A stretch of DNA of 34,521 nt from assembly GCA_020717845.1 (NCBI GenBank), contig DYDG01000008.1, positions 10,318-44,838 on the forward strand. The letters are read 5' to 3'. This document shows, piece after piece, positions 2,181 to 11,891 of this stretch (its first letter is position 1; every line of letters begins with the position of its first letter). This DNA comes from Marinifilum sp. (lineage in GTDB: Bacteria; UBA9089; CG2-30-40-21). Position numbers and translations under genes: made by a program. The notes under the pieces were generated by a model. The model was given only the letters and a program-made list of their open reading frames with translations. It was not told the origin of the DNA and did not search any database.

Positions 2181-2440
2181 TATACTCGATGTTCAAGTTT
2201 TTCGGTAATTGTTTGTTGTAGGATGGGTGATAACCCATCTATTCCATCAACGCAGGTCAGACAAAGCGACGTGTAACAATCTCTACCCATCCAGATGGTA
2301 CCCTTACATTTTGCGGTATGTGCAAACCAAAGAGGGGATAGATGGGTTAGCACCCATCCTACATCATTTCAGATGCAGGGTTTTGAGGTGATGGCAAAGG
2401 TTCTGCTTATCCTTCAAAAAAACTTGAACATCGAGTTATA
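2181..2440. mobile_element. MITE-like element 1 (260 bp, terminal inverted repeats)
   Basis: The left end TATACTCGATGTTCAAG (2181-2197, continuing in T-rich sequence to 2203) is matched in inverted orientation by the right end (about 2416-2440; reverse complement TATAACTCGATGTTCAAG plus Ts). The two ends differ by one inserted A plus the length of the T-run. There is no coding capacity. The interior holds two opposed copies of the GGATGGGT/ACCCATC palindrome. The same ends, with a different interior, occur at 11579-11891. Both elements stop 12-16 bases before the ribosome-binding site of a tail gene. The TA at each tip could be a target duplication, but this is inference. Bases 2074-2466 hold no gene. 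Confidence 0.6.
2217..2363. repeat. Opposed pair of GGATGGGT/ACCCATC palindromes
   Basis: TGTAGGATGGGTGATAACCC (2217-2236, continuing to ATTCC at 2245) and a reverse copy at 2336-2363 (gatgggttagcacccatcc core) face each other inside MITE-like element 1. Each copy can fold alone and the two can pair with each other. Confidence 0.85.
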
Positions 2441-2466
2441 GGAATTTTAATGGAGGTATGAGCTTT

Positions 2467-3195
2467 ATGAAAATGGGATTACATATTTTAGGTAAAGATG
2501 AGCAGCTTAAAGGGGTGGTTAAGGTTGAGCTGCCAGGGATATATCCGAAGGGAGACCCGCTTCCTGAACATATGGCTAAGTTAGTAGAAGAGGCGGCTGT
2601 GGGACTTGCAAAGGTATACGAACAGATAGTTGAAGAAGGCGGACATTTGTATATTAGCGATATGCTGCGTTCAGCAGCTATGCAGCAAAAAGCCCATGAA
2701 GATTGGAAATCAGGGAGAAAGTCTTCTTATAGCCCACCAGCATGTAGTAGTGTGCATGAATCTGGGCGGGCAATCGATATTGATCCGTTTGATACCGGAA
2801 TTGGACATAAAAGGGTTAGAGAAATTCTGAATGCTAATGGCTGGACAAATATTGTTCCTACCCTTACTGGTAAGGAATGCTGGCATTATGAATTTCGTGG
2901 AAAAAAATGGAATGAATATTACAAGAATCATGATTATAAGTCTATGGCAAGAGGGATGAAGGAAGAGATTGGTAATTTAGCTGCCTTAGAACAGGCTGAA
3001 AAAAATGAAGAAGATATGAAATGGGTTCAGGAATCTCTTAATAAATTAATGGGTACAACGCTGCCAACAGATGGTGACTTTGGGGCAAAGACTAAGTCTG
3101 TGGTAATGCAATTCCAGAAAAAGTACGGTCTGCAAGCAGATGGAATCCCGGGTCCTAAAGCTAAGGCTAAAATGAAAGAACTGTTGGAGGCATAG
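2467..3195 (+). CDS. M15-family peptidoglycan peptidase with C-terminal peptidoglycan-binding domain
   Basis: The protein has 242 residues. The ATG at 2467 is preferred because GGAGGT (2452-2457) abuts the upstream in-frame ATG at 2458 (spacing zero) but is nine bases from 2467. The N-terminal catalytic domain carries the LAS/M15 zinc signature: SVHESGRAIDID (His97, Asp104) and CWHYEF (His140). Residues ~183-242 form a PG_binding_1-type repeat (VQESLNKLMG, TDGDFGAKT, VMQFQKKYGLQADGIPG). The expected reaction is cleavage of peptide bonds in peptidoglycan stem peptides. Inside a tail operon, between tape measure and hub genes, it is most likely a tail-associated wall hydrolase that helps the tube cross the murein, or an endolysin or release factor for the particles. 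No signal peptide is seen, so delivery by the particle or by lysis is expected. Confidence 0.85.
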   Translation: MKMGLHILGKDEQLKGVVKVELPGIYPKGDPLPEHMAKLVEEAAVGLAKVYEQIVEEGGHLYISDMLRSAAMQQKAHEDWKSGRKSSYSPPACSSVHESGRAIDIDPFDTGIGHKRVREILNANGWTNIVPTLTGKECWHYEFRGKKWNEYYKNHDYKSMARGMKEEIGNLAALEQAEKNEEDMKWVQESLNKLMGTTLPTDGDFGAKTKSVVMQFQKKYGLQADGIPGPKAKAKMKELLEA

Positions 3196-3214
3196 AATTT
3201 AAAGGGATGATTGT

Positions 3215-4219
3215 GTGATAAATATGCTTAAACCAGCTTATAAATTAACCATAGGTTCAACTACTATTGACTCTTCAACTGACCCAACAGCCAGTATAAT
3301 AGTCAGTATCGAGGTTAGGCTTGATATAGATATTCCGGCTGATAGCTTTGAGATTGTCCTGGGACAGATACGTGAATTAAGTATAGCCAGAGGTGATAGT
3401 GCAACAGTAGAGTTAGGCGATAAAGATAGTCTGCTAAAGGTGATGGAAGGCACTGTGGCGACTATTAAATCAACCATAACTCAGACAAAAATAACAGGTT
3501 TCAACGCTATCTCCAAACTTCTTGCTTTGCGTATCAACCAGGTCTATGAAAAACAGACTGCCGGGGCTATTGTGGCTGATTTAGCCAGTCAGGCAGGGGT
3601 AGATGTTGGTGAAAAAGAAGATGGGATTGAGTTTCCCTATTATACCATTGATTCTAATAAGAATGCTTATGAACATATACGAGAGTTGAGTAAAAAATGT
3701 GGGTTTGATGTCTATCTGACATCGGATAGCAAGTTGACCTTTAAAAAGTTTGCTAAAACATCTGCTGATCATATATTTGAATACAGCAAAGATATTATTG
3801 AGTTCGAGAAATATGCTCAGGAAGAGGTATTAGCACAAGTTACTATCTTTGGTGAAAGCCCGTCAAGCTCTCAAGGGGATGAAACCTCACACTGGCTAAC
3901 AAAGAGCTTTGAGGATTACAAAGGCACCTCAGGCTCTGGCACAGAATTGAAGATTGAAGATGTAACTATCAAGACTAAAGATGCGGCTGATACCTTTGCT
4001 AATGCTGAATTAAACACTCTTAAAAAGAATACTGTCAGTGGTATTCTGAAGATATTGGGTAATGCCAATATTAAATTGGGTGATGCCATTGAGATTAAAG
4101 GGATGCCAAATGAAGAGATGAATGGTGTGTTTCAGGTGCGAAGTATATGCCACTACTTGAGTAAAGAAAGTGGATTTATTACTCAAGTAGGGATTAGAGG
4201 GTTAACAATTAACAATTGA
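3215..4219 (+). CDS. gpD-type baseplate hub protein
   Basis: The protein has 334 residues. The GTG start at 3215 has AAAGGGA seven bases upstream; an ATG at 3224 is possible but poorly spaced. The sequence shows the gpD/gp44/XkdQ hub pattern: an N-terminal strand set with PADSFEIVLG (about residues 37-50), a central helix-rich stretch (AGAIVADLASQAG; AYEHIRELSKKCGFDVYLTSDSKLTFKK) and a C-terminal beta region ending GVFQVRSICHYLSKESGFITQ. In known systems this trimer links tube to spike and adopts a VgrG/gp27-like fold. The last codons (LTINN and stop) lie inside the heptamer repeat array that begins at about 4201, so the native C-terminus has probably been replaced or trimmed by the repeat. 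The spike gene follows after an inserted four-helix-bundle gene. Confidence 0.75.
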   Translation: MINMLKPAYKLTIGSTTIDSSTDPTASIIVSIEVRLDIDIPADSFEIVLGQIRELSIARGDSATVELGDKDSLLKVMEGTVATIKSTITQTKITGFNAISKLLALRINQVYEKQTAGAIVADLASQAGVDVGEKEDGIEFPYYTIDSNKNAYEHIRELSKKCGFDVYLTSDSKLTFKKFAKTSADHIFEYSKDIIEFEKYAQEEVLAQVTIFGESPSSSQGDETSHWLTKSFEDYKGTSGSGTELKIEDVTIKTKDAADTFANAELNTLKKNTVSGILKILGNANIKLGDAIEIKGMPNEEMNGVFQVRSICHYLSKESGFITQVGIRGLTINN

Positions 4220-4253
4220 CAATTCACAATTCACAATTGACAATTAGCAATTA
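4204..4253. repeat. Heptamer array, left flank of four-helix-bundle gene
   Basis: Tandem near-7-mers of the form ACAATTG/ACAATTC (AACAATTGACAATTCACAAT and onward) run from about 4204 to 4253. The orientation is opposite to the array at 4637-4707. The hub stop codon TGA (4217-4219) lies inside the array. Confidence 0.9.
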
Positions 4254-4278
4254 ATAATTATATTTGAGGTTAATAAAA

Positions 4279-4638
4279 GTGGCAAAAGGAGATGATATTC
4301 AGGAGAGGTTAATTGATTTTGCTGTAAAAATAATAAAACTGTGCACATCTTTACCCAAAATACAGTCGGGTAGACATGTGGCGGACCAACTTCTTCGTTG
4401 TGGCACTTCGCCTGCTCCAAATTATGGAGAAGCTCGCGGTGCAGAAAGTAGAAACGACTTTGTACATAAACTTGGAATTGCACTTAAGGAACTAAACGAG
4501 TCTGGAATTTGGCTTGAAATAATCAAACGCAGTGAGATGCTGGACTTAGACATTATTGAACCGATTATGACTGAATGTAGTGAGCTTGCAAAAATAATTA
4601 GTTCGAGTATCCGCACTGTTGGGAAAAAGGAGAACTAA
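4279..4638 (+). CDS. Four-helix bundle protein (23S rRNA IVP/avd-like family)
   Basis: The protein has 119 residues. GTG at 4279 has GAGG nine bases upstream; TTG at 4264 is the alternative. It consists of four amphipathic helices with the family landmarks DIQERLIDFAVKIIKL, VADQLLRCGTSPAPNYGEARGAES, FVHKLGIALKELNESGIWLEII and a C-terminal ELAKIISSSIRTV helix. This is the four-helix-bundle family first known from 23S rRNA intervening sequences and related to the avd accessory protein of diversity-generating retroelements. Its molecular function outside retroelements is unknown. No reverse transcriptase or variable repeat is visible here. The gene sits between hub and spike, where no tail gene is expected, and is flanked by opposed heptamer arrays, which suggests insertion as a cassette. 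It keeps operon orientation, so downstream tail genes may still be transcribed. Confidence 0.8.
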   Translation: MAKGDDIQERLIDFAVKIIKLCTSLPKIQSGRHVADQLLRCGTSPAPNYGEARGAESRNDFVHKLGIALKELNESGIWLEIIKRSEMLDLDIIEPIMTECSELAKIISSSIRTVGKKEN

Positions 4639-4707
4639 TGGTGAATTGTGAATTGTCAATGGTGAATTGTGAATTGTGAATGGTGAATGGTGAATGGTGA
4701 ATTGTGA
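4637..4707. repeat. Heptamer array, right flank of four-helix-bundle gene
   Basis: Tandem TGAATTG/TGAATGG units (GGTGAATTGTGAATTGTCAA and onward) run from the stop of the four-helix-bundle gene to just before the spike gene's AAGGAG. This is the inverse complement of the array at 4204-4253, so the two could form a large stem with the gene in the loop. Confidence 0.9.
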
Positions 4708-4721
4708 CAAGGAGATATAAA

Positions 4722-5600
4722 ATGCCAAATCTCGTAGATACTATTCAAAAGATCGTTCAGCATGAGTTGCAAAAGATACGAATTGGTGAATTAGGGGTAG
4801 TAACTTCTGTATTCCCTCATGCTGATGATGGCGATAAGGATAATTACGAATGTAATGTAAAGCTGAAAAATAGCGGTCTGGAGTTGCGTAAAGTGCCAGT
4901 AGCTACAGGCCATATTGGAACGGTTGCTATCCCGAATGTAGGCGATCTGGTGCTGTTGTCTTTTGTTAAAGGGGATGTGAATCAGGCAATTATTACCAGT
5001 AGATTATACAACGATGAGGACAGACCGCCAGCAAACAAACCCAATGAGATTATTCATCGGCTGCCACTTCATGCTGAGGATGATAAGGCAATTAAGTTAG
5101 AATTGCGAAATATTGAAGATAATACTCCTCCACGTGAGCTATTGTTAGAGATGCCTGAAAAGATTAAGATGCAAATAGTTGATACTAAAGTCTATCTTCA
5201 GGTAGGAGAGACAAAAGTTACTATTGTCCAGGAGGGTGATAGTGACGGTAAACTGACTATCGAGACCGGAAAATCAAAAATGACCATGAACCAGGATGGT
5301 GATATTGTTGTTGAATCAGAGGCAAAACTTGAGATTAAAACTAAAGCAGATACCATTATTACATCTGAAGGTAAACTTGATTTAATATCAAAAGGTGATA
5401 TGTCCCTGTCTGGCCCCAATATTAATATCAAAAGTGACCAGGCAACTAAAATTGAAGCAGGCACTGATGGCACATTCAAAATAGGTGCCTCTGGAAAGAT
5501 AGAAACCGGAGCACCGTTGACCATTAAGTCAGGGGCAACTGCAAAGATAGAGGCTTCTGCTACGATGGATATTAAAGGGGCGATGGTGAATATTAATTAG
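4722..5600 (+). CDS. gpV/gp45-type baseplate spike protein
   Basis: The protein has 292 residues. The ATG at 4722 has AAGGAG (4709-4714) seven bases upstream; the in-frame GTG at 4704 lies inside the repeat array and is rejected. The N-terminal ~100 residues form an OB-like domain (RIGELGVVTSVFPH, VKLKNSGLELRKVPVA, AIPNVGDLVLLSFVKGDVN, AIITSRLYND), matching phage V/gp45 spikes and the VgrG gp5 domain. From about residue 140 the sequence turns into short beta-repeats (KLEIKTKADTII, KLDLISKGDMSL, INIKSDQATKIEAG, LTIKSGATAKIEAS) of the triple-stranded beta-helix type. The trimer would form the membrane-piercing needle below the hub. The PAAR gene downstream would cap its tip. The long helix compared with Mu gp45 suggests an extended spike. 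Confidence 0.8.
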   Translation: MPNLVDTIQKIVQHELQKIRIGELGVVTSVFPHADDGDKDNYECNVKLKNSGLELRKVPVATGHIGTVAIPNVGDLVLLSFVKGDVNQAIITSRLYNDEDRPPANKPNEIIHRLPLHAEDDKAIKLELRNIEDNTPPRELLLEMPEKIKMQIVDTKVYLQVGETKVTIVQEGDSDGKLTIETGKSKMTMNQDGDIVVESEAKLEIKTKADTIITSEGKLDLISKGDMSLSGPNINIKSDQATKIEAGTDGTFKIGASGKIETGAPLTIKSGATAKIEASATMDIKGAMVNIN

Positions 5601-5685
5601 TTGAGTTAGTTGGGTTGGTTGAGTTTGGAGGTAGGATGGGTGATAACCCATCTATTCTATTAACTAACCAAACTAACTCAACAAA
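5598..5685. repeat. Compound hairpin with GGATGGGT/ACCCATC core (copy 2)
   Basis: A left arm TTGAGTTAGTTGGGTTGGTT (5601-5620, continuing to 5627), a core at 5631-5658 and a right arm TAACTAACCAAACTAACTCA (5661-5680, continuing to 5685) form a two-part stem. It begins at the spike stop codon and fills the gap to the PAAR gene. Confidence 0.88.
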
Positions 5686-5718
5686 CAAAACGAACTAAAC
5701 CAAACGGAGCAAGCCAAA

Positions 5719-6111
5719 ATGGGTATGCCAGCAGCCAAACAAGGTGACCAGATAATGGCCACAGATATACATATTATTATGATTCCGAGTCCTGGAGGGC
5801 CGATACCGACACCATTACCACATCCATTCGTCGGAATTATAAATGGTGGGTTAAGCAGCGATGTAAAGATTATGGGTATGCCGGCAGCAACTATGAACTC
5901 AACAGCACAGAATGTACCACCGCATATTCCACAGGGTGGTCCGTTTCAGAAACCGCCTACAAATAAGGCGACTATTCAGATTGGTAGTATGACAGTGAAG
6001 ATAAACGGTAAGATGGCTGCCAGAAATGGTGATATGGCTATGACTTGCAATGACCCGGCAGATATGCCGATAGGAACTGTAATGGCTGTGGGAACAGTGA
6101 TGATTGGGTGA
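5719..6111 (+). CDS. PAAR-motif spike-tip protein
   Basis: The protein has 130 residues, with an ATG start and GGAG nine bases upstream. It has the features of PAAR-like tip proteins: two MGMPAA segments (residues 1-6 and ~54-59), a PHPFVGIINGG turn, a central PPHIPQGGPF, and a C-terminal ATIQIGSMTVKINGKMAARNGDMAMTC-type repeat unit. In known type VI secretion and injection systems PAAR proteins form a zinc-bound cone that sharpens the VgrG/gpV spike and can carry effectors. This copy has no effector domain fused to it. Adjacency to the spike gene fits that role. PAAR genes are unusual in classic Mu or PBSX prophages and more usual in injection systems, which slightly favours a domesticated device. 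Confidence 0.75.
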   Translation: MGMPAAKQGDQIMATDIHIIMIPSPGGPIPTPLPHPFVGIINGGLSSDVKIMGMPAATMNSTAQNVPPHIPQGGPFQKPPTNKATIQIGSMTVKINGKMAARNGDMAMTCNDPADMPIGTVMAVGTVMIG

Positions 6112-6178
6112 TTAGTTGGTTTGGTTAGTTGTAGGATGGGTGCTAACCCATCTCGAACTCTCAACCAACAAAACCAAA
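6112..6178. repeat. Compound hairpin with GGATGGGT/ACCCATC core (copy 3)
   Basis: A left arm TTAGTTGGTTTGGTTAGTT (6112-6130), a core from 6131 (GGATGGGTGCTAACCCATC) and a right arm rich in CAACCAACAAAACC (6161-6178) follow directly on the PAAR stop codon. The ribosome-binding site of the next gene overlaps the end of the right arm. Confidence 0.85.
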
Positions 6179-6191
6179 AGGAGTATTCATC

Positions 6192-6626
6192 ATGCCAAAT
6201 GAAATATTCGGCACAGATTTGAAATTAACAGATAAATATTGGAGAAAGGGAGAGTTGGAGACAGATCTTCAAACGGTTATTAGCAGGAAAAACCTGAAGG
6301 ATTTTGGTCTGGCAGCCGGATATGAAAACTTAGCTCAAGCCCTTACCCTTAGATTGCTTACCCCTAAAGGGGAATTATCTAAGTTAGGACATCCAGATTA
6401 TGGCTCAAGATTACATGAGCTAATTGGTGAGATTAATAATGCCCGGACAAGAGGAATAGCAAAGCTATACTGTAAAGAGGCTATCTTGCATGACCCCAGG
6501 GTAGAGAAGATAATCAGTATCAAAGCAAACCCGGTATCTCGCAATCGGATAGATGTTCATGTAGAAATTCTTCCGATTAAAGAGACTAAACCATTAAATC
6601 TGGTGTTTCCGTTTAATCTTGGGTGA
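6192..6626 (+). CDS. gp25/gpW-type baseplate wedge and sheath-initiator protein
   Basis: The protein has 144 residues, with ATG at 6192 and AAAAGGAG eight bases upstream. The gp25-like family is recognisable from the central block: a helix with NLAQALTLRLLTPKGEL, then GHPDYGSRLHELIGE, followed by a helix and paired strands (VEKIISIKANPVSRNRIDVHVEI). Length matches the family (about 110-150). In characterised tails the protein nucleates sheath polymerisation on the baseplate. The old name 'lysozyme' for this family is not supported by function. Its position between spike/PAAR and gpJ is the standard order. Confidence 0.82.
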   Translation: MPNEIFGTDLKLTDKYWRKGELETDLQTVISRKNLKDFGLAAGYENLAQALTLRLLTPKGELSKLGHPDYGSRLHELIGEINNARTRGIAKLYCKEAILHDPRVEKIISIKANPVSRNRIDVHVEILPIKETKPLNLVFPFNLG

Positions 6627-6633
6627 TATTCAA

Positions 6634-6704
6634 TCCACAGATTACACAGATTGCACAGATTACACAGAGTAATAAATAGAAAAAAATCTGTGAAATCTGT
6701 GGAG
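6634..6704. repeat. CACAGATTA-type repeat hairpin
   Basis: CCACAGATTACACAGATTGC (6635-6654, continuing to 6668) is opposed by AAAATCTGTGAAATCTGTGG (6683-6702). Together they form an imperfect stem in the gap between the gp25-type gene and gpJ. This is a different repeat family from the GGATGGGT palindromes. Confidence 0.8.
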
Positions 6705-11578: not shown

Positions 11579-11891
11579 TATAACTCAATGTTCAAGGTTT
11601 TTAACTTGTGATAGTCAGAATAGAACGGCTTAGCATATTTGTAGCTGCGGGAGGTAGCACTGGCAGCAGACCTTCTGCCTCTGGCAGGTTTGCCCCCGCT
11701 ATCTTCCAATCACGTTTGTAGCTGCGGGGCTTGCCCCCGCCTATCCAAAAAGCGACCACAAGGCGGTTGTTGAGCCTGTCGAAACGAGGTAGCACCTCTG
11801 GCAGGTCGCAGCTACAAAAATGCTGGCAGACATTTTACCGCTCTGGCATAGTAGTTCCTATGAGCCACAAAAACCTTGAACATCGAGTATA
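11579..11891. mobile_element. MITE-like element 2 (313 bp, terminal inverted repeats)
   Basis: The left end TATAACTCAATGTTCAAGG (11579-11597, then Ts) and the right end (11869-11891; reverse complement TATACTCGATGTTCAAGG) match each other and the ends of the element at 2181-2440. The interior differs. It carries GC-rich repeats of another family: GTAGCTGCGGG at 11641, GTAGCTGCGGGGCTTGCCCC at 11718-11737, and the reverse CGCAGCTAC near 11808. There is no gene inside. The right end is 11 bases before the Shine-Dalgarno sequence of the next tail gene. The whole gap 11436-11919 is non-coding. Confidence 0.6.

Follow-up and report, generated by a model that had tools for sequence, protein, structure and literature searches.

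Why does a gene for a small four-helix-bundle protein, framed by two opposed arrays of heptamer repeats, sit between two structural genes of a tail operon? In the window, i.e. the whole stretch of 34,521 nucleotides of Marinifilum sp. that was analysed, the upstream host gene encodes a YQBQ-like baseplate hub (3215..4219; Pfam match below threshold) and the downstream host gene a spike/gpV protein (4722..5600; Phage_base_V Pfam match). Between them lie a left heptamer array (4202..4260; reverse-complement unit AATTGTG/AATTGTC/AATTGTT), an open reading frame for 119 amino acids with a GTG start (4279..4638) and a right heptamer array (4637..4707; unit AATTGTG/AATGGTG), all on the forward strand. 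TRF assigns a period of 7 to both arrays, with 8.4 and 10.1 copies, respectively, and the two arms are 81% complementary across 59 nt. The gene product is a four-helix bundle of PF05635, the family of the 23S rRNA intervening-sequence protein (IVP), scoring 66.1 bits (E 3.8e-18) and thus above the curated cut-off of 33.8. It also matches PDB 2rld (E 7e-19) and, by profile, 2gsc (XCC0516 of X. campestris, E 3e-16), two solved relatives with five chains per entry. The opposed, complementary arrays around a four-helix-bundle gene that a preliminary description had reported are therefore present, with the left array starting at 4202 and not at 4204, two bases further to the left. The IVP family has been known for decades from 23S rRNA, whereas the window IVP is located in the hub-spike spacer and not in a 23S rRNA gene, and to our knowledge it has no known catalytic domain. 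The reading that we favor, with some reserve, is that of a mobile cassette akin to the 23S rRNA intervening sequence (IVS) that has been relocated to mRNA spacers, in which the IVP gene is framed by complementary heptamer arrays and for which we infer a role in trans. Gene and arrays form a recurrent package in which the unit varies and the period of 7 does not, the arms match, gene and arrays travel together, the occupied spacers are polymorphic and the two are tied at the genome level.

The cassette fills its spacer exactly, from the hub stop codon to the spike Shine-Dalgarno sequence AAGGAG, which lies directly 3′ of the right array. The 3′ end of the hub gene falls in the left array, where positions 4202-4219 read TTA ACA ATT AAC AAT TGA and thus encode L-T-I-N-N followed by the stop codon TGA, and the IVP stop codon TAA (4636-4638) overlaps the right array. 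In the archaeal tail operons L031, L033, L034 and L037 the hub homologues terminate just before the array-coded residues of the window hub, the spike starts from about -4 to +22 nt from the hub stop, so that the genes abut or overlap, and neither a gene nor an array is found at the junction. Both the proposal that the gene sits where tail operons have none and the proposal that the array rebuilt the end of the hub are borne out by these relatives. Among the genomes searched, archaeal tail-like operons of Nitrososphaeria, Bathyarchaeota and Methanosuratincola are the nearest to the hub and spike region (window 2458-6626; 34-43% identity), and this similarity suggests that the tail operon is a contractile injection system common to both domains. 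Gene-less inverted arrays occupy further stop-start spacers of the same operon (835-953, 5597-5705, 6111-6189 and 6634-6703), with 9-nt or irregular units (e.g. TTAGTTGAG and CACAGATTA). Three of these four spacers hold a 21-bp palindromic insert (TAGGATGGGTGNTAACCCATC) that is also seen at 2219, 14162 and 14305.

On the level of the transcript, a stem is predicted in which the arrays pair and the open reading frame forms the loop (4202..4707, forward strand). RNAfold gives -134.6 kcal/mol for 4195-4730 (z -3.7), none of 100 shuffles was as stable, and an Rfam search of the window returned no match. The arrangement resembles the 23S rRNA IVS with an IVP/S23p reading frame of Leptospira and Coxiella, where a gene of the same family lies between complementary ends within a transcribed unit and a stem is formed. 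By contrast, the cassette resides in protein-coding operons, in the gap between stop codon and Shine-Dalgarno sequence, is present in many copies per genome and has heptamer arrays as arms, with a unit that differs by locus, which widens the range of the IVS, across phyla, beyond rRNA to the spacers of mRNAs. The arrays might also be a device acting at the RNA level only, namely a stem that is cut by RNase III or insulates neighboring genes, with its complementarity under selection, and not the ends of a mobile unit. The strong stem predicted at the window, the 28-bp terminal stem of the Coxiella 23S IVS, which is cleaved by RNase III (PMC4990558), and the same-strand position within operons agree with such a device. 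Selection for pairing, however, needs no period of 7, and the genome-level tie of IVP genes to unlinked arrays would be left unexplained, so that we regard this explanation as rather unlikely.

How widely the package holds within the family is seen from the relatives of the window IVP in 290 genomes, which yielded 87 loci with usable flanks in 36 families. At least one flank is periodic at lag 7 in 54 of the 87 loci (62%), compared with 28 of 695 control ORFs (4%) from randomly chosen stretches of genomes rich in IVPs (OR 39, p 1.7e-39), which excludes a chance origin for the class, while any other lag from 3 to 13 was found in 0-3 loci; about 38% of the IVP loci have no heptamer flank. Left and right arm belong together, with a median complementarity score of 33 within a locus as opposed to 16 for crossed arms (p 9e-32) and 16 for ORFs other than the IVP within these loci (p 2e-15), and 44 loci from 22 families combine a lag-7 flank with complementary arms. 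The period of 7 stays constant; the sequence of the repeat unit does not, and differs between loci. The window genome (G000) itself has eight PF05635 matches, several others of which are likewise inside inverted arrays but with different units, e.g. GGGATTAGGG/CCCTAATCCC at L001, and one (L007) lacks a heptamer flank. Furthermore, six IVPs were examined on plasmids whose records are finished and assigned to a named organism (Anabaena, Dolichospermum, Gloeocapsa, Treponema, Chlorohelix and Bernardetia, from four phyla), and all six have a lag-7 array on one or both sides. Since periodicity, complementarity and the plasmid records agree, the gene-array package is general to the IVP family. Short-read MAGs can misassemble repeats, and a few loci contain runs of N, but six named bacteria have the package on plasmids that are complete circles, and this, together with the enrichment of period 7 only, excludes a low-complexity or assembly artefact for practical purposes. 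Arrays with periods of 8 and 9 occur at 3.2% and 1.4%, respectively, of ORF flanks in the stretches drawn at random from genomes rich in IVPs (L261-L279, L290-L299) and are nearly absent from IVP flanks; other periods may associate with other proteins.

Sister species show the same spacer in different states. Between flgF and flgG, G006 carries one IVP (IVP-a) with AAATTAA arrays, G005 a gene-less GTGAATA/TTTTCAC array with an upstream flank that is 95% identical, and G007 a different IVP (IVP-b) with GTAAGTC/GACTTAC arrays. The L056 site is filled in G002, while in G003 the stop codon is followed immediately by the Shine-Dalgarno sequence, and the L059 site is filled in G008 and empty in G013. 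Both clean empty sites (G003/L223 and G013/L228) consist of just a short stop-to-Shine-Dalgarno spacer without terminal inverted repeats (TIRs). At the L080 site G002 has an IVP with AATTATG arrays, G000 gene-less GGGATTAGGG arrays and G001 a short hairpin, and in a metalloprotease spacer G004 has an IVP and G005, G006 and G007 have three different gene-less arrays. The neighbors of IVP genes are mostly on the same strand (68 versus 6 upstream, 54 versus 15 downstream). These spacers and strand counts place the insertion point in the gap between stop codon and Shine-Dalgarno sequence, in the direction of the operon.

Gene and arrays also travel together. Arms are similar between loci (score of at least 30) in 47% of the pairs with an IVP identity above 60%, as against 2-9% at 30-60%, and above this 60% limit it is often one and the same unit that accompanies IVPs of different genera, at genome sites with no relation to each other. 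The AATTGTG unit is common to L041, L042, L043, L044 and L071 at unrelated sites, in a group comprising the window, G004, G006 and G007. A search for other IVPs within the same arrays thus succeeds mainly for close relatives. The preliminary description is supported in part; gene and arrays do act as a single cassette, as the shared unit of related IVPs at unrelated sites and the polymorphic presence between sister species show.

Part of this mobility has a conventional route, since some relatives are inside a MITE with TIRs and 8-10-bp duplications. One IVP lineage in the genus of G004 and G007 is within such a MITE (TIR CTAATCATGTCCCACAATTTTTACTGG, 8-10-bp duplications), the L043/L044/L071 family has CTAATCATG...CTTATC ends with 8-10-bp duplications, L042 and L015 have common ATGTGTTTAGCG ends and L073 is accompanied by a ATTTTAGG duplication. 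All of these ends and duplications fit an ordinary MITE cargo, according to which a transposase alone would move the cassette via outer TIRs. This is nevertheless improbable, since the window copy and others (e.g. L056, L059 and L081) are without an outer TIR, the clean empty sites show none, and bare cassettes lacking TIRs or duplications are common. Besides the arrays, no outer TIR and no target duplication was seen at the window copy, nor was a strict target duplication seen at bare cassettes when the two clean empty sites were compared. The arrays themselves were rejected as a fixed-sequence TIR, since their units differ between loci. Two MITE-like elements elsewhere in the window (2184-2436 and 11583-11888) have ACTCGATGTTCAAG...CTTGAACATCGAGT ends, and similar ends are found at L023 and L024 beside TAATTGACAATTG heptamers.

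Many arrays contain no gene. Gene-less arrays outnumber gene-bearing cassettes, so that arrays may pre-exist and the IVP may follow. A MITE family found in two species with 16 or more copies (L177-L195; e.g. G007:C288, C105 and C24) has target duplications of 8-10 bp and an internal heptamer hairpin, most copies of the G004/G007 MITE have arrays and lack the IVP, and in the MITE copies L177 and L183 the IVP is internally deleted. A copy in the window genome (G000:C149) has kept both arrays and the first IVP codons, the reading frame having been lost between two TGGCAAAA repeats. An exclusive association of the AATTGTG unit with IVPs was rejected, since gene-less copies are present in G000 and in four viral-contig stretches, where the neighbors were partly inspected; no close IVP relatives were found in viral contigs. 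The main rival to a mobile IVP cassette is based on such arrays and sees the IVP as a passenger: inverted arrays would arise by replication slippage and hairpin-templated synthesis in stop-start spacers and offer safe landing sites, in which IVPs accumulate by recombination between arrays or on MITEs. Orthologous spacers with gene-less arrays of different units (L220 and L226; L189, L196 and L197) and the MITE copies with internal arrays but mostly without IVP speak for it, and polymerase slippage has been put forward before as the origin of heptamers (Mrazek 2007, cited in PMC4679880). What a passenger leaves unexplained is why arrays distant from IVPs are nearly confined to genomes that have an IVP, with a dose response, and why IVP flanks prefer period 7 over the co-resident 8- and 9-nt arrays. 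We consider this rival possible but doubtful.

The genome-level tie between genes and arrays emerged from a whole-genome count in the 290 genomes, which used two degenerate heptamer patterns, each also read backward (four in total), and included arrays beside IVPs. Arrays were present in 69 of 121 IVP-positive and 15 of 169 IVP-negative genomes (OR 13.6, p 2e-19, statistics that ignore kinship and base composition), and the link persists outside the phylum of the window (p 2e-15). With 0, 1, 2-4 and 5 or more IVP copies, 8, 30, 51 and 80% of the genomes have arrays, respectively. In random stretches, chosen irrespective of IVPs and with none of their arrays adjoining an IVP, 22 arrays were found in 490 kb of IVP-rich genomes and 0 in 432 kb of IVP-zero genomes, corresponding to 7 of 20 versus 0 of 19 genomes (p 0.008). 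The supposed bond of arrays to the gene hence holds strongly at the genome level but is not exclusive, as the window genome, sister species and viral contigs all contain gene-less arrays, and the 15 IVP-negative genomes still hold arrays. The tie is correlative. A dedicated reverse transcriptase or transposase acting in trans, which the preliminary description had envisaged, was not found to be tied to the arrays: reverse transcriptase genes (OR 1.65, p 0.07) and Y1 transposase genes (OR 2.4, p 0.002) make no difference within a given IVP stratum, and both were rejected as trans factors for lack of an association independent of the IVP. No catalytic partner of the IVP was found when these two kinds of gene were checked across genomes; the reverse transcriptase matches of the window genome are on contigs C111 and C128 and not on C3.

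For the mobile IVP cassette these results point to a protein that probably takes part in making or spreading arrays in trans. The cassette would insert after the stop codon of one gene and before the next Shine-Dalgarno sequence of a same-strand operon, and the transcript would fold into a long stem with the IVP reading frame as a loop, like the 23S rRNA IVS. The IVP may bind the array stem or hairpin, as RNA or single-stranded DNA, and, in cis as well as in trans, make, extend or re-insert arrays, catalysis being supplied by a putative host enzyme. Gene-less arrays would then be footprints or non-autonomous copies, comparable to REPINs with respect to RAYTs, and the stem could let the host transcript tolerate the insertion by shielding it, by analogy with the 23S IVS. 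More tentatively, and with less than even confidence, bacterial heptamer arrays could owe both their creation and their spread to IVPs, which would recognize a geometry (the 7-nt period and the hairpin) and recruit a host polymerase. This would amount to a new small mobile system, with a four-helix-bundle protein without recombinase domains and gene-less arrays as its non-autonomous offspring, and would mean that complementary arrays can be built behind stop codons with no need for a fixed sequence.

Among known systems, REPIN-RAYT likewise comprises a gene family whose presence accompanies dispersed short repeats in inverted pairs; however, the RAYT is a Y1 transposase, whereas the linked gene here belongs to PF05635 and the repeats share a period rather than a sequence. 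In diversity-generating retroelements Avd serves a reverse transcriptase. The window cassette contains neither a reverse transcriptase nor template/variable repeats, although PF05635 has a structural homologue in Avd (PMC10053308). Heptamer arrays are known from cyanobacteria as STRR. As in the cassette, tandem 7-mers lie in spacers, often as inverted pairs, in STRR and in the arrays of Xanthomonas, Beggiatoaceae and Geobacter: the available parts of the respective papers describe GGGAATC heptamers with 70 inverted pairs in X. campestris, near the preceding ORF (PMC4692102), TAACTGA heptamers in Beggiatoaceae and cyanobacteria (PMC4679880) and paired heptanucleotide sites in Geobacter (PMC2700814). 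In those same parts no protein linked to the arrays is named, heptamers are said to be, in many bacterial genomes, the commonest class among long simple repeats (Mrazek 2007, cited in PMC4679880), and a repeat-binding protein, possibly itself the mobile element, is asked for (MacGregor 2015; PMC4679880). X. campestris has both inverted heptamer arrays and a PF05635 protein of solved structure (XCC0516, PDB 2gsc), and nothing treating IVPs and heptamer arrays together was found in the literature searched. The IVP family is now tied to these arrays locally, by co-travel and at the genome level, which provides a candidate protein for an old class of repeats and gives each of the two a testable partner.

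Some IVP loci have neighbors of other kinds. On plasmids of cyanobacteria and Chloroflexota (L238, L240 and L242) the IVP has helicase/DUF1156 genes on one side and DNA methylase or Swt1-HEPN genes on the other, and may belong to a defence operon. In the window genome, one IVP with complementary arms (L002, G000:C111) adjoins CRISPR-like repeats (GTATGAATGTTTGAGCCGATGATAAGGTGATTGCGAC) on the contig that also carries a reverse transcriptase fragment, and in Anabaena cylindrica pANACY.01 (L237) an IVP with heptamer arrays is located between cas2 and cas1, antisense to both.
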